DNA of 64,000 nucleotides from Sorangium cellulosum (GTDB lineage: Bacteria > Myxococcota_A > Polyangia > Polyangiales > Polyangiaceae). The stretch lies in assembly GCF_002950945.1 (NCBI RefSeq), contig NZ_CP012673.1:1550001-1614000 (forward strand), written 5' to 3'. The notes beneath the pieces are model-generated. The model ran no database searches and was not told where the DNA came from. It was given only the letters and a program-made list of their open reading frames with translations. Shown here piece by piece: positions 18,791-34,165 of the stretch. Position 1 is the first letter of the stretch. Each line of letters opens with the position of its first letter. The translations under genes were made by a program, and so were the position numbers.

Positions 18791-21301
18791 TCAGAAGGAG
18801 AGGACGCCGCCCTCGTCGGCCTTGGCGGCGGAGCCGGGGCGGATCGTGATCTCCTCGGCGCCGCCTCCGCCGGCGGCCTTCTTGATCACGTCGTACGAGG
18901 CGCCGGGGATGAGCCCCGTGACGAGGTGCCGCTTCACGCCGGGCGGCGCCGTGTACTGCACCTCGGCGACGGCGCCGAGGCGGACCGGGAACAGGACCAG
19001 CGTCCCCCGCACCGCCGCGCCCGCGAACGGCGTCCCCTGCTTCGTGAGCACGACGGCCGCGGGATCCGCCGCGCCGCCGCGGGACGCTCCCTGGAGGACG
19101 TGGAGGAAACGCGCGTCCTTCGGCATCGTGGACGGCTCGACCCGCAGGATCCCGCGCATCGGCTCGGACGCGGCGGGCTTGGTCTCCCAGGTGCCCCCCG
19201 CCTTGTACTCCTCGGCCGTGAGGACGGCGCTCTCCGGCTGGAGCGTGGTCACGAAGAGCTTCTGCTCCTTCGGCGTCGTGACGGTCGCGAGCTTCCCCGC
19301 GACCTGCGCGACCGTCGGCGTCTGCAGGAAGAAGCGCTTGAAGCGGCCCTCCTTGCCCGTCGCGGCGCGATCGTAGATCACGAGGTGGTCCGGCTTGAGC
19401 CACACGATCGAGCGGCTGACGTGCGTCACGTCGGCGATGTTCTCGTACCTGGAGTTGTAGAGCGCGGTCGCGTCGCCGAGGACGTAGGTGTAGTCCTGCG
19501 CGAGGCTCCTCGCGAGCACCCGGGGATCGTCCGTGTGCACGAGCGGCCACTGGGATCCGCTCTTCCAGAGCCAGGCCCGGTTCGGATCCTCGTGGTGCTG
19601 GACCTTGTCGTTCTCGACGGTGAGGGTGTTGTGCTGCTCGGAGCCCGAGAAGAACGAGCCGTACCCGACGCGCTCCTTCGTGAGCCACTCGCCGCCGCGG
19701 TAGAAGCCGAAGCTGAGGCCGTCGCCGTGCTGGTGATCGATGTGCTCCCAGCCGAGCCGGAAGTGGAACCAGGCCGCGTCGGGCCCCCAGCCCGTCCGCG
19801 CAGAGACCTCGCCGAGGCCGGCGCCGTGGTGCGAGAGCGGGACCTTGGGGCGCGGGTCGGTCGGGGTGACCGCCGGGTCGAGCAGCAGGAAGTACAGGAT
19901 GGGGTGGCGCCGGTGATCCTCGCCCGCCGAGCGGGCGCGCCGCGCGAGGGCCGCGGGGCCGCCGGGGCCCAGGTGGATGGCCATCCAGCGGAGCGCGTTC
20001 AGGCGCTCGGTGTTGCCGCTGTTCTCGGCGTGCAGGCCGAGCGCCGCGAGCGCGTCGATGTGATCGGTGAGCTCGTAGCTCTGGCCGTCGCCGGACCACG
20101 CGGCCTCGTGGGTCGGCCCGAGCCGTCCCACCGCCGTGCCGGGGCTCAGGCTGTGCAGGTGGGCCGGGATCATCTCGTGCCAGAAGGGGTTGCCGTCGAG
20201 GTGCACCTGCGGGCCCCACTTCGCCGGATCGGCCTCGCCGGCCGTCTGGATGGCGAGCAGCGTCTGGCTCACGTAGGCCAGCGTGTAGCGGCCGTACTGG
20301 AAGCCCTCCGGCGCCGAGCCGCCGCGCGCGTCGTTCCTGAGGACGTGGTCGCTCATGTAGAGCCACGCCCCGGCGACGCTCGTGAAGTAGTCCCGGAGCC
20401 GCCGGTAGGCGCCGCTCGGCTTCGGATCCGGCGGATCGTCGGCCTCGTCGAACGCGAGCGACATGAGCGTGAGGTTGCGCATGTGCGACGTGAAGTAGTT
20501 GTTCACGGCGTACCGGCGCTTCTTCGGCTCCTTCAGCAGCACCGGGTCGTTCAGCTTCCCCGCCGGCTCGGGGTGGTCGTGGCTCGTCGTGGACGACTTC
20601 AGCTGCTCCTCGGCCCAGCGGAGGAACAGGGTCCTCAGCGCCGCCTTGTCCTCGGCCGAGAGGTACCCGTAGATCCAGTCGACCGCGAGGCCGAACGACT
20701 CGCCGGCCCAGCGGGCGCGGTCGCCCGTCGAGAAGCGGCCCTTGAAGACGCCGTCGGGATCGCCCTTGGCCACGCGGTCGGCGATGTGGAGCAGGATCTT
20801 CCGCGCGCGCGCGGCGTACTGGTTGCGGGCCGCCTGCTCGCCCGAGATGAGCGACATGAAGGCGAACAGCTCGGCCTGCGACTCGCAGAAGACGCGGGCC
20901 GCCGTGCAGTCGCCCCCGGAGGGGACCTGGCCCTTGTCCATCGCCGCCGCGGCCTCGACCGCGAGGGCCTCGAGCTCCCTGAAGAAGGGGTTCGCGCGCG
21001 TGGCGCGCGCCCTGAGCTTCGGCAGGTCGGCCTCGCGCACCCAGAGCCTCGGGTGCCCCTTCGCGGGAGAGGCGGGCGGCGCCGGCGGCGCCGCGAACGA
21101 GGGCGGCGTGGCGAACGAGGGCGGCGCGGCGGCGAGGGCGGCGGCGCCCTCCTGCGTCGCCGGCGCGCCGCCCTGCACGGCCGGGGTCGGCGGCCCCGGG
21201 GTCTGCCGCCGGTCACAGCCGGCGAGGCCGCCCGCGGAGGCCGCGGCCGCGGCCGCGAGCGCGAGGGACGCGACCGCCGCGCCGGGCCGCCAGCGCTTCA
21301 T
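18791..21301 (-). CDS. heparinase II/III-like polysaccharide lyase, lipoprotein
   Basis: 836 residues from the ATG at 21301, which overlaps the upstream stop (ATGA). A signal peptide ends in the lipobox GLAGC. An Ala/Pro-rich linker follows, then a long helical (alpha/alpha toroid) region of about 350 residues. The heparinase II/III domain begins around HIDHQHGDGLSFGFYRGGEW and continues with EQHNTLTVENDK. The conserved His and Tyr residues of this lyase family are present in that stretch. Uronate-cleaving lyases are common in acidic exopolysaccharide loci, where they trim or release the polymer; the uronic acid would come from the dehydrogenase at 5601. The C-terminal 150 residues are beta-rich. 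Confidence 0.85.
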   Translation of the reverse strand: MKRWRPGAAVASLALAAAAAASAGGLAGCDRRQTPGPPTPAVQGGAPATQEGAAALAAAPPSFATPPSFAAPPAPPASPAKGHPRLWVREADLPKLRARATRANPFFRELEALAVEAAAAMDKGQVPSGGDCTAARVFCESQAELFAFMSLISGEQAARNQYAARARKILLHIADRVAKGDPDGVFKGRFSTGDRARWAGESFGLAVDWIYGYLSAEDKAALRTLFLRWAEEQLKSSTTSHDHPEPAGKLNDPVLLKEPKKRRYAVNNYFTSHMRNLTLMSLAFDEADDPPDPKPSGAYRRLRDYFTSVAGAWLYMSDHVLRNDARGGSAPEGFQYGRYTLAYVSQTLLAIQTAGEADPAKWGPQVHLDGNPFWHEMIPAHLHSLSPGTAVGRLGPTHEAAWSGDGQSYELTDHIDALAALGLHAENSGNTERLNALRWMAIHLGPGGPAALARRARSAGEDHRRHPILYFLLLDPAVTPTDPRPKVPLSHHGAGLGEVSARTGWGPDAAWFHFRLGWEHIDHQHGDGLSFGFYRGGEWLTKERVGYGSFFSGSEQHNTLTVENDKVQHHEDPNRAWLWKSGSQWPLVHTDDPRVLARSLAQDYTYVLGDATALYNSRYENIADVTHVSRSIVWLKPDHLVIYDRAATGKEGRFKRFFLQTPTVAQVAGKLATVTTPKEQKLFVTTLQPESAVLTAEEYKAGGTWETKPAASEPMRGILRVEPSTMPKDARFLHVLQGASRGGAADPAAVVLTKQGTPFAGAAVRGTLVLFPVRLGAVAEVQYTAPPGVKRHLVTGLIPGASYDVIKKAAGGGGAEEITIRPGSAAKADEGGVLSF

Positions 21302-25628: not shown

Positions 25629-26831
25629 CTAGGAGGACGGGCGGGGGTCGGCGGGGTGGGGGGGGCGGTACTGCTTGAGGAGGGCGGCTACGGCGTCGAG
25701 CGGGAGGGCGGGGGCGTGGTGGCCGCTGTGGCCGGTCATGTCGACGCCGGCGCAGATCGCGTTGAGGATCGCCTCCTCCACCACGTCGACGGCGGCCTCG
25801 AAGAGCGCGTCGAGCTCGGTGTCGAGGACGACCTCGGCCATGTGGCGGCCAGGGGCGATGGGGCGCACGCTGAGCGAACGGCTGGAGCGAGGCACGCCCG
25901 GATCGTCGTCGGCTAGGCGCGGGACGCGGTTCGCGGTGCTCCAGGCGAGGACGATCTCGCCGGAGTTGTTGGCCGCATAGCCGCCGGTCCGGCCGATCGC
26001 GAGCGCGGCGCGACGCGCGAGGCGCGAGAGCTGGCGGTGGATGAGGGGGGCGTCGGTGGCCACGAGCACGATGATCGAACCGGCCGGACCGCGGCGCGGG
26101 ATGTGCGCGAAGCGGTCGCTGATGAGGCGGCCCACCGGGACGCCGTCGACGCGCAGCAGATCGCGGTCGCCGAAGTTCGAGAGCACGAGCGCGCCCACCG
26201 CGACGTCGAGGCCGGCCATCGGGACGCGGCGGCTGGAGGTGCCGATCCCGCCCGCGAAGTGGAAGGTCTGCATGCCGGTGCCGGCGCCGACACAGCCCTC
26301 GTCCACGGCGCCGCCCCGGGCCGCCTCGAGCGCCTCGGTGACGTCCGCCTGCATGACGTGGCGCCCCACGGCGTCGTTCAAGTAACTGTCGTCGCACTCG
26401 GCGACGACCGGGATCGCGACGTCGTACTCCTTTCCGATCTTCGGGTGCAGCTGAGAGAGCCACGCGACCGTGGCGTCGAGGACGCGGCCGACACACAACG
26501 TGCTGCAGAGCAGGATCGGGGTCTCGCAGAGGCCCCACTCGTTGATCTGCGCGAGGCCCGTGACCTCGCCGGCGCCGTTCAGCACGTAGCTCGCCGTGAA
26601 CACCCGCTCGAGGAAGACGTCGCCCTCGGCGGGGACGACCGCGGTCACGCCGGTGCGCACCGGGCCGATGCCAGGGATGAGCTCGCCCTCACCCTCGATC
26701 TTGGTCACATGGCCCACGCGCACGCCGGCCACGTCCGTGATCGCGTTGTCGCGACCGGTCGGGAAACGGCCGATCGCGATGCCGAGATCACGCAGCCGGG
26801 GACGCACGATCCGCGGGGGAGGCGCGGTCAT
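25629..26831 (-). CDS. S58-family N-terminal-nucleophile aminopeptidase (DmpA/BapA-like)
   Basis: 400 residues from the ATG at 26831, which overlaps the ATP-grasp stop (ATGA). Family motifs are DVAGVRVGHVTKIEG, NEWGLCETPILLCS and VGAGTGMQTFHFAGGIGTSS. The self-cleavage point Gly251/Ser252 lies in RGPAGSIIVLVATDAPL; Ser252 would become the catalytic N-terminus of the beta chain. DmpA cleaves L-amino-acid amides with D-esterase activity, and BapA cleaves beta-peptides. No signal peptide is seen, so it should be cytoplasmic. Coupling to a peptide-ligase-like gene suggests that it matures or recycles that enzyme's product. Confidence 0.9.
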   Translation of the reverse strand: MTAPPPRIVRPRLRDLGIAIGRFPTGRDNAITDVAGVRVGHVTKIEGEGELIPGIGPVRTGVTAVVPAEGDVFLERVFTASYVLNGAGEVTGLAQINEWGLCETPILLCSTLCVGRVLDATVAWLSQLHPKIGKEYDVAIPVVAECDDSYLNDAVGRHVMQADVTEALEAARGGAVDEGCVGAGTGMQTFHFAGGIGTSSRRVPMAGLDVAVGALVLSNFGDRDLLRVDGVPVGRLISDRFAHIPRRGPAGSIIVLVATDAPLIHRQLSRLARRAALAIGRTGGYAANNSGEIVLAWSTANRVPRLADDDPGVPRSSRSLSVRPIAPGRHMAEVVLDTELDALFEAAVDVVEEAILNAICAGVDMTGHSGHHAPALPLDAVAALLKQYRPPHPADPRPSS

Positions 26832-29140
26832 GGACCGGTCGCCTCCGGGCCCGCGGCGGAGAGGGGCGCGTGGGGCTCCGCGAGCGGCGAGGGGCCGGTG
26901 AGCTCGGCGGCCGGCGCGGCGCCCGCCGCGGCCGGCGCGGCGCCCGCTGCGGCCGCAGGGGCCGCCGCGGGCTGGAGCGGGGCGGCGGCCGTCGACCCGG
27001 CCGGCGCGGGCGCCGCCGGGAGGGCGGCGGCGCGGGGCGGCGCGGCGCGGGTCTCGCGGTGGCGCTTGAGGCAGCCGGCCATGATCTCCCCGATCAGCGA
27101 GCGGTAATCCATGCCCGCCACCTTGGCGATCTGGCACAGGTCGCTGAAGTCGGGCGTCAGGCCGGGCAGCGGGTTGATCTCGATCACGTACACCCTGCCG
27201 TCCTTCGTCATGCGCAGGTCGACCCGGGCCACGTCGCGGCAGGCGAGGGCCGTGAAGGTGTCGCGCACGACCTTCTCGATGCGGCGGAGCTCGGACGGCG
27301 TGAGCTGCGCGGGGCACTCGAAGCGCACTCGCGGCGTGTCGGTCTGCTTCTCCTCGTAGCCGTAGACGGGGTAGGTGGGCGGGTCGACGAAGACGACCTC
27401 CATCGGCGGCAGGACCTTCGGCCGCCGCTCGCCGAGCAGGCCCACGGTGAACTCGCGGCCGGTGATGTACTCCTCGATGAGGGCCGGCTGGTGGTAGCGC
27501 TCGACGAGCTGCCGCGCCGCCGCGCGGGCCGCAGCCTCGTCCTTGACCACGGACGCGGAGGTGATCCCCTTCGAGGTCCCCTCGGCGTTCGGCTTGACGA
27601 TCACCGGGTAGCGGAACGGCTTCAGCTTCTCGCGCCCGGTCGTGACCACCTGCCACTCGGCCGTCTCGATGCCGGCGGCCCGCAGGATCTGCTTCGTGAG
27701 GCCCTTGTCGAGGGCCAGCGAGAGCGTGGTCGCGTCCGAGCCGCTGTAGGGGATGCCGAGCAGCTCGCAGAGCGCCGGCACCTGGGCCTCGCGGCCGCGG
27801 CCGCGGAGCCCCTCGGCGATGTTGAAGACGACGTCGACCCCGGCGGCGGCGAGCGCGCGCGGCAGATCCGGGGTCGCCTCGAGCGGGACCACGGTGTGGC
27901 CGTAGCTCTCGATGGCGCTCGCGATCGCCTGGATGGTGCGCGGCGAATCGAACTCGGCCTCGGAGTCGTACAGCGCGGCGGGGCCCGGCTTGCTCGCGCC
28001 GCCGCCGTCCGACGCGGGCTCGCCCCGCTTCATGTTGTAGGTGAAGCCGACGCGAAGCGCGCTCCGCTTCGCCCGCCGCGGCTCCTTGTTGTCGAGGAGC
28101 GGCAGGAGCCCCCGCCGCTTGCAGGCGCTCCTCACGATGGCCCGGATGACGCCGTCGAAGTCGACGCCGCGCCGCGCCGCGGCCACGAACACGCTCGCGC
28201 CGGGCTGGAGCGTGGGCAGCCCGTCGACCTCGAGGAAGTGCACGTCGTGGCCCTGGCTCCGCGTGGACGACGGGGCGACCCGGAACTCGCAGCGGGCGTG
28301 GTCCTTGAGGTCGAGGGCGCGCACGACGCGCGCGGTGAGCGACCGGATGCGCTCGAGCGTCGCCGCGGGCAGCTGCGCGGGCCGGCGCGTCACCTGCTCG
28401 GGCTTCGCGTGCTTCAGGTTGAAGTCGTAGACGTTGTAGTTGCCCTGCACCTGCGGATCGATCACGAGCTCGATGGGATCGAGCACGCCCTCGGGGATGT
28501 CCGCGCCGGCGGACCGCCCGGCGCCCGCGTCCTTGAGCCCGTCGACGAAGGAGCACGCGACGTCGACGCCGCTGACGTAGCGCTCGACGAGCAGCCCCGC
28601 CTCGAAGCGCGCGAGCTGCCGCTCGACGACCTCGGCGAGCTCGTACGCGTCCTCGCAGACGCTCCACTCGCGGTGGATCCCCTTGGAGGAGCCCTCGAAG
28701 TTCGGCTTCACGATGACCGGGAAGCTCACGTCGTCGAGCGCGCCGCTCTCCAGGGTGGTCCGGTTGACGAGGCGGGCGCGCGGCGTGGTGACGCCGTAGC
28801 TCGCGAGCAGGCGCTTCGTGAGCGACTTGTCGAGCGCGATGTTGAGCGCGTAGGCGTCGGAGCCGGTGTACGGGATCCCGAGCTCGTCGAAGAGCGACGG
28901 GTAGAACGCCTCGCGCGTCTTGCCCTTGTGGCCCTCGGCGGTGTTGAAGATGAGGTCCGGCTGGATCGCCTCGAGCCGCGCGAGGACCCGGGAGGCCGGC
29001 CCGCTGACCTCGATCCGCTCGACCTCGTGCCCGGACCGCTCGAGCGCGCCGGCGATGGCGTCGATGGTCTCCGGGCTGTCGAACTCTGCTTCCTCGGCGG
29101 ACCCCGTGAGCTTCAGGTTGTGCGTGAGCGCGATGCGCAT
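26828..29140 (-). CDS. tandem double ATP-grasp (D-Ala-D-Ala ligase-like) protein
   Basis: 770 residues from the ATG at 29140, with AGGAGAG upstream. Two full Ddl-like units are fused. Unit 1 (about 1-365) starts MRIALTHNLKLTGSAEEAEF and has IPYTGSDAYALNIALDKSLT and VIVKPNFEGSSKGI. Unit 2 (about 385-710) starts VGFTYNMKRG and has IPYSGSDATTLSLALDKGLT, VIVKPNAEGTSKGI and the metal-binding EINPLPGLTPDFS. In unit 1 the equivalent site reads EVDGLPTLQPG, so the key Asn is replaced. Unit 2 looks active; unit 1 may be altered. The last 60 residues are Ala/Pro-rich. The substrate is unknown; an amide-forming ligation is expected. Confidence 0.88.
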   Translation of the reverse strand: MRIALTHNLKLTGSAEEAEFDSPETIDAIAGALERSGHEVERIEVSGPASRVLARLEAIQPDLIFNTAEGHKGKTREAFYPSLFDELGIPYTGSDAYALNIALDKSLTKRLLASYGVTTPRARLVNRTTLESGALDDVSFPVIVKPNFEGSSKGIHREWSVCEDAYELAEVVERQLARFEAGLLVERYVSGVDVACSFVDGLKDAGAGRSAGADIPEGVLDPIELVIDPQVQGNYNVYDFNLKHAKPEQVTRRPAQLPAATLERIRSLTARVVRALDLKDHARCEFRVAPSSTRSQGHDVHFLEVDGLPTLQPGASVFVAAARRGVDFDGVIRAIVRSACKRRGLLPLLDNKEPRRAKRSALRVGFTYNMKRGEPASDGGGASKPGPAALYDSEAEFDSPRTIQAIASAIESYGHTVVPLEATPDLPRALAAAGVDVVFNIAEGLRGRGREAQVPALCELLGIPYSGSDATTLSLALDKGLTKQILRAAGIETAEWQVVTTGREKLKPFRYPVIVKPNAEGTSKGITSASVVKDEAAARAAARQLVERYHQPALIEEYITGREFTVGLLGERRPKVLPPMEVVFVDPPTYPVYGYEEKQTDTPRVRFECPAQLTPSELRRIEKVVRDTFTALACRDVARVDLRMTKDGRVYVIEINPLPGLTPDFSDLCQIAKVAGMDYRSLIGEIMAGCLKRHRETRAAPPRAAALPAAPAPAGSTAAAPLQPAAAPAAAAGAAPAAAGAAPAAELTGPSPLAEPHAPLSAAGPEATGP

Positions 29141-32464: not shown

Positions 32465-34165
32465 ATGTCAGATCGCACGAATCAGCTGATCGAGCCGAAG
32501 GCATTGCAGGAGGTGCTGAAGAAGCGCGTCCATGGGCACCTCGAGCCGCGGGGCTATACGGGTGTTCCGGCGGCGGGATCCGGGGAATCGGGGACAGGGC
32601 GCTTCGGCCGCATGTTCCCCCGCTTGCCTGCGCACCAAGAGGACAACGGGCAACTCGAGCAGCTCGGGACGCCGGTGGAGCAGGGGGGCAGCGGGCTCAT
32701 GGTCGACCAGGGCGGCGTCGGTGACTCGACGATCCCTGCGGGCTTCACTTACCTAGGGCAGTTCATCGATCACGACATCACGTTCGACACGACGTCGAGC
32801 CTCGACAAGCAGAACGACCCGCGCGCGCTGCGCAACTTCCGCACGCCGCGGCTGGATCTCGACAGCGTTTACATGGGCGGACCCAGCGACAGCACGTACC
32901 TCTACGACCAGACCGACCCTGACAAGTTTCTGCTCGGGCCCTCGGTCAACACGGGCGCCTTCGCTCATCCGACGCCGGACGCGGCCGGCGACCTGCCCCG
33001 CAACGCCCAGCAGATCGCCCTGATCGGCGACCCCCGCAATGACGAGAACCTCATCGTCGCCCAGCTGCACCGGCAGGTCTTGAAGTTCCACAACCGGGTG
33101 GTCGACTTCGTGCGCAGCAAGGGGGCCGCGCCGGCCGTCGTGTTCAGCACGGCGCAGCAGCTGGTGCGCTGGCACTACCAGTGGATCGTGGTGCACGATT
33201 ATCTCAAGCGAATCGTGGGCGCGCCGGTGGTCGACGACATCCTCCGCAATGGCCGGCAGTTCTATCGGTTCAGCGGGCAGCCTTTCATCCCCGTGGAGTT
33301 CTCGGTCGCGGCGTTTCGCTTTGGCCACTCGATGGTGCGCGACGACTACCGCTTCCACCGGGCGGAGAGCGGGCGCCCCTTCACCCCGCCGCGCTTCGCG
33401 ACGCTGGGGCAGTTCTTCCGGTTCACCCGGCAGGACACGACGGCGGTGCAGTGGGTCCTGCACCCCGACGACTGGGAGAATTTCTTCGAGACCAACGCGG
33501 CGCTGCCGCCGGTGATGGCCCGCAAGATCGACCCGCGGCTCGCGAGCACGCTCCACAACCTGCCGAACCTGGCGCCGAACAGCGGACCCACCTCCCTCGC
33601 CGCCCGCAACCTGGTGCGCGGCCTGGTGATGGGGCTGCCGTCGGGCCAGGCGGTGGCGCAGGCCATGGGGATCCCGGTCCTCAAGGAGGAGCACCTCGAG
33701 TCCGGCGACACCGACGGGTTCCTGAGGAAGACCGGGATGTTGCAGGCCACGCCGCTATGGTTCTACCTCCTCAAGGAGGCGCAGGTGCAGCACGACGGCC
33801 AGCTGCTCGGCAACGTCGGCGGGCGCATCGTGGCCGAGGTGCTGATCGGGCTGATCCAGGCGGATTCGACCTCGTTCCTCAACATCCCGCCGGCGCCGCC
33901 CATCAAATTGCCCACGCGCATCCGGGACCTCGGCGACATGACCACGCTCGCCCGCGCAGCGGCCATCGGGCTCGGAGAGTCCCTCGCGAAGTCGCCCGGC
34001 GCGTCGCTGGCGCCCGGCGCCGCGATCAACCACCCGCTGCTGGAGAAGCTCACGCCGAACCTCGGCGCGCTGCTCACCCGCTTCCGCCGGTGGAAGCCGT
34101 CGTTGCCGTCGGCGACGCCGGGTACCTTCACGATGGCCGACCTGATCAGGTTCGCGAACCAGTAG
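32465..34165 (+). CDS. animal-type haem peroxidase
   Basis: 566 residues from the ATG at 32465, preceded by GGAGGAAGG. The distal-His motif GQFIDHDITFD places His103 and the Asp that binds haem and calcium. The proximal-His motif FRFGHSMVRDDYRF places His288. GDPRNDENLIVAQLH is a further family signature. This is the XPoAn/peroxidasin-type bacterial group, which oxidises halides or organic substrates. No signal peptide is visible, so it is cytoplasmic or exported by a non-Sec route. It appears to be a single-gene unit with a strong hairpin right after the stop. Confidence 0.92.
   Translation: MSDRTNQLIEPKALQEVLKKRVHGHLEPRGYTGVPAAGSGESGTGRFGRMFPRLPAHQEDNGQLEQLGTPVEQGGSGLMVDQGGVGDSTIPAGFTYLGQFIDHDITFDTTSSLDKQNDPRALRNFRTPRLDLDSVYMGGPSDSTYLYDQTDPDKFLLGPSVNTGAFAHPTPDAAGDLPRNAQQIALIGDPRNDENLIVAQLHRQVLKFHNRVVDFVRSKGAAPAVVFSTAQQLVRWHYQWIVVHDYLKRIVGAPVVDDILRNGRQFYRFSGQPFIPVEFSVAAFRFGHSMVRDDYRFHRAESGRPFTPPRFATLGQFFRFTRQDTTAVQWVLHPDDWENFFETNAALPPVMARKIDPRLASTLHNLPNLAPNSGPTSLAARNLVRGLVMGLPSGQAVAQAMGIPVLKEEHLESGDTDGFLRKTGMLQATPLWFYLLKEAQVQHDGQLLGNVGGRIVAEVLIGLIQADSTSFLNIPPAPPIKLPTRIRDLGDMTTLARAAAIGLGESLAKSPGASLAPGAAINHPLLEKLTPNLGALLTRFRRWKPSLPSATPGTFTMADLIRFANQ

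Follow-up and report, generated by a model that had tools for sequence, protein, structure and literature searches.

A fused pair of Ddl-like ATP-grasp units adjoining a family S58 peptidase gene in Sorangium cellulosum, with one half of the putative ligase apparently decaying in relatives

D-alanine-D-alanine ligases (Ddl) are dimers. For the beta- and D-aminopeptidases of family S58 we know of no settled natural role. Amidoligase-peptidase neighbourhoods, in which ATP-grasp ligases are linked with peptidases and GNAT proteins, were reportedly described by Iyer et al. in 2009 and may have included the combination considered here. In the present work we analysed a 64,000-nucleotide stretch of DNA from Sorangium cellulosum (Myxococcota, order Polyangiales; contig NZ_CP012673.1 of 14.56 Mb, positions 1,550,001 to 1,614,000), which will be referred to as the window. 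In it, the gene for a Ddl-like ATP-grasp ligase of two fused units overlaps that for an S58 peptidase. A literature search, beyond the reach of which most subscription papers lay, returned no paper on such a pairing, and searching for DmpA together with ATP-grasp led to one paper, on carnosine synthesis.

Both genes were located on the minus strand, with the following features (basis in brackets).

26828 to 29140, minus strand: gene for the fused two-unit Ddl-like ATP-grasp ligase, 770 amino acids (open reading frame, Pfam, AlphaFold2 and PDB fold matches)
28106 to 29140, minus strand: N unit of the ligase, residues 1-345 (residue alignment to DdlB)
27041 to 28057, minus strand: C unit of the ligase, residues 362-700 (residue alignment to DdlB)
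26831 to 27040, minus strand: low-complexity Ala/Pro tail of the ligase (varying among Sorangium strains, repeat-like in two)
26828 to 26831, minus strand: ATGA overlap of the ligase stop and the peptidase start (read from the sequence)
25629 to 26831, minus strand: gene for the family S58 N-terminal nucleophile (Ntn) peptidase, 400 amino acids (Pfam, PDB comparison and residue alignment)

Start and end coordinates, the 770-residue two-unit fusion and the ATGA overlap with the S58 gene agree with a sequence-only reading made earlier of this locus. The ligase gene starts with ATG, preceded 4 nucleotides upstream by AGGAGA, and its product contains two Dala_Dala_lig_C stretches (PF07478, Pfam search), the N and C units being 35% identical over 361 columns. 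The peptidase matched PF03576 with 364.9 bits against a cut-off of 23.9 and hence belongs to family S58. Compared with that of Sorangium cellulosum strains, the window ligase is 86-91% identical. Ratios of nonsynonymous to synonymous substitution rates (dN/dS) of 0.23-0.34 for the ligase (residues up to 698) and of 0.24-0.35 for S58, each from four comparisons, demonstrated purifying constraint. A four-base junction was also found elsewhere, as ATGA in So0157-2 and in a distant deltaproteobacterial metagenome-assembled genome (MAG) and as GTGA in So ceGT47; in Minicystis rosea the two genes are separated by a 44-base gap. Since both genes are constrained and the four-base junction recurs, the pair appears to be more than a chance arrangement. 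Scanning for promoters yielded none at the locus, and scanning for terminators yielded one terminator-like site, inside the ligase gene on the opposite strand and at chance level. The C-terminal tail of the ligase is fast-changing and, when the tails of two Sorangium loci (L008 and L012) were compared, repeat-like in two strains; it may have caused the assembly breaks in So0008-312 and in a Sorangium MAG.

To compare the two units, 17 fusions were aligned to E. coli DdlB, namely the window, six of the seven named records (L010 was left out) and ten further genomes of the order. The C unit was unchanged in all 17 at K97, K144, E180, E187, K215, R255, D257, E270, N272, G276 and S281 (DdlB numbering), positions which in DdlB serve to bind ATP, the metal and the second amino acid by its carboxylate, and carried Ser (8/17) or Thr (9/17) at the position of Ser150. 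The intact catalytic positions of the window C unit include Lys598, Arg639, Asp641, Glu654, Asn656, Gly660 and Ser666, and its substitutions are Thr for Ser150 and Gln599 for Tyr216. The window N unit keeps the equivalents of Lys97, Lys144, Glu180, Arg255 and Glu270 and shows Asp306 for Asn272, Glu285 for Asp257, His244 for Tyr216, Thr for Gly276 and Ala for Ser281; from the set R255, D257, E270, N272, G276 and S281 it retains R255 and E270 only, whereas the window C unit has all six. The earlier observation of a replaced metal-binding Asn in one unit was confirmed, Glu304/Asp306 of the N unit standing against the intact Glu654/Asn656 of the C unit (DdlB Glu270/Asn272). Among the 17 N units, Arg255 was lost in 6, Glu270 in 4, Asn272 in 12, Gly276 in 17 and Ser281 in 16, and the position of Glu187 was occupied by Asp throughout; Lys97 and Glu180 were retained in all 17 and Lys144 in 16. 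Loss of Arg255 was distributed over three or four branches of the tree (G031; G094 and G088; G042 and G015; and G014, the order of which relative to the last pair is unsettled). As the N units of the deltaproteobacterial MAG and of G052, G024 and G037 are complete at R255, D257, E270 and N272, the ancestral N unit was probably complete. Invariant columns amounted to 44 of 315 in the N unit versus 91 of 317 in the C unit (62 of 318 versus 100 of 318 without the divergent G031), and the dN/dS of the N unit, 0.29-0.44, lay above that of the C unit in four out of four comparisons.

These alignments suggest that the N unit of the fusion is decaying in several relatives while the C unit is kept. With catalytic residues gone from the N unit in three or four branches and all eleven positions kept in the C unit, one working ligase unit, the C unit, is the simpler reading, although the N unit of the window may still work; a double ligase, as originally worded, is not supported. 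Alternatively, both units might act in turn and yield a tripeptide or a doubly amidated product. This would be in line with K97, K144, E180, R255 and three acidic metal ligands being kept in the window N unit, with the canonical R255, D257, E270 and N272 of the four N units named above, and with the N unit still being strongly constrained by its dN/dS, but R255 has been lost in three or four branches with the fusion kept and the C unit unchanged at the checked positions, and we consider two active units unlikely. The fused ligase represents an apparent case of one catalytic half repeatedly decaying and the other being kept.

The best PDB fold matches of the ligase were D-Ala ligases. An AlphaFold2 model of residues 1-700 had a mean pLDDT of 80.9 and a pTM of 0.52, because of which the packing of the two units was left uninterpreted. 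Membership among the Ddls was judged by the curated NCBIfam cut-offs of PRK01372 (243) and TIGR01205 (245.65). The whole fusion scored above both (317 and 263.7), and each unit alone scored below them (N unit, 133.6 and 105.3; C unit, 189 and 164.5); the fusion passes because the scores of its two units add. Both models were passed by the controls, namely the window genome's own Ddl1 (359.8/313.4) and Ddl2 (244.7/338) and a DdlB from Noviherbaspirillum (401.9/330.5), the gene of which sits among mur- and fts-like genes as judged by eye. Since both halves jointly pass a cut-off that neither passes alone, score-based annotation would hide the apparent decay of one of them. Searching the genome of the window yielded four further matches, comprising the two ordinary Ddls, a GNAT-linked Ddl-like gene and a weak partial match (E 2.1e-6). 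In a tree of 29 units and relatives, with long branches flagged, N and C units were sisters (97/94) and three true Ddls stood apart from them (100/100).

According to an excerpt of PMC7691350, Ser150 and Tyr216 are conserved in Ddls making only D-Ala-D-Ala. In the window, Ser150 is Ser in the N unit and Thr in the C unit, and Tyr216, which is Tyr in DdlB and in the three ordinary Ddls aligned, is replaced in both. Among the 17 fusions, the C unit carries Gln in 10, Phe in 4 and Leu in 3 at this position, and the N unit carries His in 7, Asn in 7, Glu in 2 and Ser in 1. No cell-wall genes were recognised adjoining the window ligase. A back-up D-Ala-D-Ala ligase for peptidoglycan would account for the whole-protein PRK01372 score and for the top PDB matches being Ddls; nevertheless, the cut-off is reached only by the two units adding, two ordinary Ddls are encoded elsewhere in the genome and Tyr216 is replaced in both units, which makes such a function highly improbable. 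A cell-wall Ddl was rejected as the likely role on the same grounds. Consistent with the sequence-only reading, the window ligase is probably not a cell-wall D-Ala-D-Ala ligase, given the per-unit scores and the two ordinary Ddls.

The S58 protein carries the predicted self-cleavage site between Gly251 and Ser252 and keeps Glu145, Asn219 and Ser290 (Glu144, Asn218 and Ser288 in DmpA); Glu292 is found where DmpA has Asp290. In the excerpted text of PMC9570944, Glu144, Gln216, Asn218, Ser288 and Gly289 are given as active-centre residues and self-cleavage at a Gly-Ser bond is reported. Two DmpA-type residues differ in the window protein, Asp147 replacing Tyr146 and Leu217 replacing Gln216. The former is a weak test of activity, since Tyr146 is substituted in most of the sequences compared in that excerpt. 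Among solved relatives, PDB 2DRH scored highest (303.7 bits), followed by DmpA 1B65 (218.7), the 'D-aminopeptidase' 5TZB (215.5) and BapA 3N2W (210.7). The initial designation as DmpA/BapA-type was not borne out as worded, as the archaeal 2DRH is nearer (304 bits against 219 and 211) and Tyr146 and Gln216 differ, and the ability to cut D- or beta-linked peptides is an extrapolation for the S58 of the window.

To follow the linkage of the two genes, 96 genomes of the order, a subset of a larger group, were searched with the C unit, and up to 24 candidates per genome were scored. At 1e-45, matches were obtained in 17 of the 96 genomes including that of the window, 11 with the fusion and 6 with other relatives (37-41%). 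Among the 11 fusion genomes an adjoining S58 gene was present in the window alone; eight had no S58 within 1.8 to 8 kb downstream of the ligase, and the fusions of G052 and G024 were left out of the linkage count as their downstream sequence was too short. S58 directly follows the fusion in So0157-2, So ceGT47, Minicystis rosea and the deltaproteobacterial MAG. In So0008-312 it sits at the end of a contig, with repeat DNA resembling the ligase tail in front of it, so that the link is only presumed there. L010 was not assessable and was likewise left out, and the fusion of a Byssovorax MAG (completeness not stated) had no S58 in 6.3 kb and none in the whole assembly. In total, 6 of 15 assessable fusions have an adjoining S58 (four in Sorangium, one in Minicystis and one in the deltaproteobacterial MAG) and nine have none. 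A universal coupling, which was near-complete in the first relatives, failed on this wider sampling. An acidobacterial MAG encodes two separate Ddl-like genes, with S58 on a different contig.

The linked S58s formed one clade (97/94) that excluded the remaining ten S58s of the tree, among them three encoded by So0157-2 or by the genome of the window, and the MAG branched outside Minicystis and Sorangium just as in the ligase tree. Because of this shared branching, the pair looks inherited. The unlinked ligases of G094 and G088 (fork 94/91) fall inside the range of the linked ones, so that an inherited pair with several losses appears to fit the trees best, two independent gains being possible. 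The two genes are not unlinked in all relatives, and of the proposed coupling, co-inheritance where the genes are linked was supported, whereas constancy was not. The S58 might also be a general aminopeptidase which is co-transcribed by happenstance and whose substrate is unrelated to the ligase product. The nine fusions lacking it would agree with this, as would the other inspected S58s, which are mostly without a Ddl-like neighbour and in some cases accompanied by peptide uptake genes; on the other hand, the linked S58s occupy their own supported clade, separate from the three of So0157-2 and the window genome, and four-base overlaps occur in Sorangium and in the distant MAG despite differing outer neighbours, so that we regard a merely general function as rather improbable.

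Regarding the surroundings, a UvrD-type helicase gene lies divergently upstream of the ligase in the window, So0157-2, So ceGT47 and G096 (named records by eye), the last of which has no S58. A shared operon with the surrounding glycan-type genes was considered and rejected, since Minicystis (L011) and the MAG (L013) do not share these neighbours, which are kept in the Sorangium loci L008 and L012. Within the window, positions 18791-21301 encode an 836-amino-acid protein without Pfam match at 0.001 beside epimerase-like (by eye) and Gfo/Idh/MocA genes, a similar gene run being present in L008 and L012, and positions 32612-34165 encode a protein with an animal haem peroxidase domain (PF03098). 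In G037 the place of S58 is taken by a gene for a 488-amino-acid protein without Pfam match (L075 6529-7995), overlapping the fusion by 4 nucleotides. GNAT was also considered as a partner; in G042 and G015 the fusion is followed by a GNAT gene overlapping it by 4 nucleotides, an arrangement that the window does not show.

As the C unit keeps the ATP, metal and second-carboxylate positions, it is read as a dipeptide-type ligase. We tentatively propose that the two enzymes serve the synthesis and turnover of a small amide, the C unit making a short unusual peptide and the S58 hydrolysing it. The C unit would phosphorylate the carboxylate of a first amino acid with ATP and join the activated residue to a second amino acid, the free carboxylate of which would be held in the Arg639/Gly660/Ser666 pocket. 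The N unit, a fused copy which apparently is still able to bind nucleotide but shows relaxation of its catalytic part within the family, would mainly provide the C unit with a built-in dimer partner, the fusion mimicking the Ddl dimer. After cutting itself at Gly251|Ser252, the S58 would hydrolyse the N-terminal residue off the ligase product and thereby limit or recycle it. The likeliest product would be a dipeptide whose first residue is non-standard (beta-, diamino- or D-); catalysis, product, beta-type residue and S58 substrate are what we infer. The S58 could conceivably provide a second synthetic step instead, acting as an aminoacyl transferase that passes the ligase-joined residue to another amine. 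Excerpts of PMC9235088 and PMC9570944 describe DmpA and related aminopeptidases making carnosine from beta-alanine amides or esters, but these are laboratory reactions with activated donors, and no sequence feature favours transfer over hydrolysis, leaving a transferase quite unlikely.

Neighbours of some Ddl-like relatives hint at beta- or diamino-acid substrates for the ligase. In two of the six other relatives of the order, G060 and G051, the gene for a single Ddl-like ligase is preceded on its own strand by a lysine 2,3-aminomutase gene, 6 and 3 nucleotides upstream, according to gene calls made in this analysis; aminomutase-ligase neighbours in relatives of the order lie at L077 6656-8869 and L082 7979-10246. 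Three more of these six (G091, G020 and G038) have a pair of Ddl-like genes accompanied by a GNAT domain or gene (Pfam for G091 and G020). Fourteen plasmid records matched the ligase, nine of which were inspected, using the PLSDB gene table, which is incomplete. Two of the nine have a lysine 2,3-aminomutase or KamA gene, three genes upstream in a Bradyrhizobium relative and adjoining on the opposite strand in a Thioflavicoccus relative, and two have a diaminobutyrate or diaminopropionate gene, one record having both kinds. In L016 a radical SAM gene, its aminomutase domain below the cut-off, is located between two ATP-grasp fusions. A different rhizobial Ddl-like gene, in which Tyr216 is replaced by Thr, matched in 13 plasmid records. 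In three of the four neighbourhoods inspected, panD directly precedes it and an annotated S58 (P1) gene lies 1.5-6 kb away (L085, L090 and L091; Mesorhizobium sp. 131-3-5, S. fredii NXT3 and Rhizobium sp. T136), possibly forming a beta-alanine dipeptide cluster; in the fourth, KamA and a gene of ATP-grasp type lie nearby and no S58 is annotated in the stretch. On the Mesorhizobium plasmid alr lies between the Ddl-like and S58 genes. Since the aminomutase, panD and diamino-acid neighbours all lie away from the window locus, they constitute a lead and not a test.

Further Ddl-like relatives showed other surroundings. L079 (2668-8915) encodes a 715-amino-acid protein whose N-terminal half is Ddl-like and whose C-terminal half matches Peptidase_M20 below the cut-off; genes for two gamma-glutamyltransferases and an N-formylglutamate amidohydrolase come after it. 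Peptidase_Mx-like genes are present on the opposite strand beside Ddl-like relatives in L013 and L017, and the Ddl-like gene elsewhere in the window genome overlaps a GNAT-methyltransferase gene by 4 nucleotides (L025 9004-11402; G000:C1 about 4233000). On plasmid pBPHY02 of Paraburkholderia phymatum (L093), the Ddl-like gene Bphy_7633, tabulated with a log2 fold change of -8.45 in nifA-mutant nodules in an excerpt of PMC8305402, adjoins a MATE transporter; a MATE gene is also near Ddl-like genes in L070.

Several observations weigh against the proposed synthesis and turnover of an unusual dipeptide. Most fusions sampled in the order are without an adjoining S58, and among the neighbours inspected, for the window pair and for other fusions, we recognised no gene that would supply a substrate; likewise, six of the nine inspected plasmid relatives have none of the above amino-acid genes. 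Peptide importers were found beside two of the first six plasmid S58 genes inspected, so that an S58 by itself says little about the substrate. The metal ligands of the window N unit are all still acidic (Glu285, Glu304, Asp306) and its Arg255 is kept, and this unit may therefore be active. Changes at Gly276 and Ser281 occur as well in two single-unit relatives linked to GNAT (own_GNATpair and L019), which may well be active; neither change thus proves decay, and both may reflect the substrate. Finally, NGR234, a single-unit rhizobial Ddl-like relative, keeps Tyr216, and this residue alone does not settle the substrate.

In a broader and more doubtful view, Ddl-like ligases and S58 peptidases might together constitute a natural system, scattered in its occurrence, for the synthesis and recycling of beta-amino-acid dipeptides. 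In Polyangiales it would be represented by a fused ligase, one half of it decayed, together with S58, and on rhizobial plasmids and in other Polyangiales by single ligases fed by panD or lysine 2,3-aminomutase. If true, this would give the S58 beta-aminopeptidases a biological substrate. The heritable pairing with a dedicated ligase offers a direct route to a substrate of S58 via the ligase product.

In comparison with known systems, DdlA and DdlB (PRK01372, TIGR01205) have the same fold as the window ligase and share with its C unit the residues for ATP and metal as well as the pocket for the carboxylate of the second substrate, whereas the window ligase consists of two fused units, each below the cut-offs and each with Tyr216 replaced. 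Pyrococcus 2DRH, DmpA and BapA share with the window S58 the PF03576 domain, the Gly-Ser cleavage site and the equivalents of Glu144, Asn218 and Ser288; Tyr146 and Gln216 of DmpA are Asp and Leu in the window protein, and the nearest relative, 2DRH, is a 'hypothetical' by its entry. The rhizobial panD, Ddl-like and S58 cluster likewise combines a non-standard Ddl-like ligase (Tyr216 to Thr) with a nearby S58 gene, but its ligase has a single unit, panD adjoins it and its S58 belongs to a different clade. From the amidoligase-peptidase neighbourhoods, the window locus differs in its fused Ddl pair with one apparently decaying half and in having an S58 as partner.

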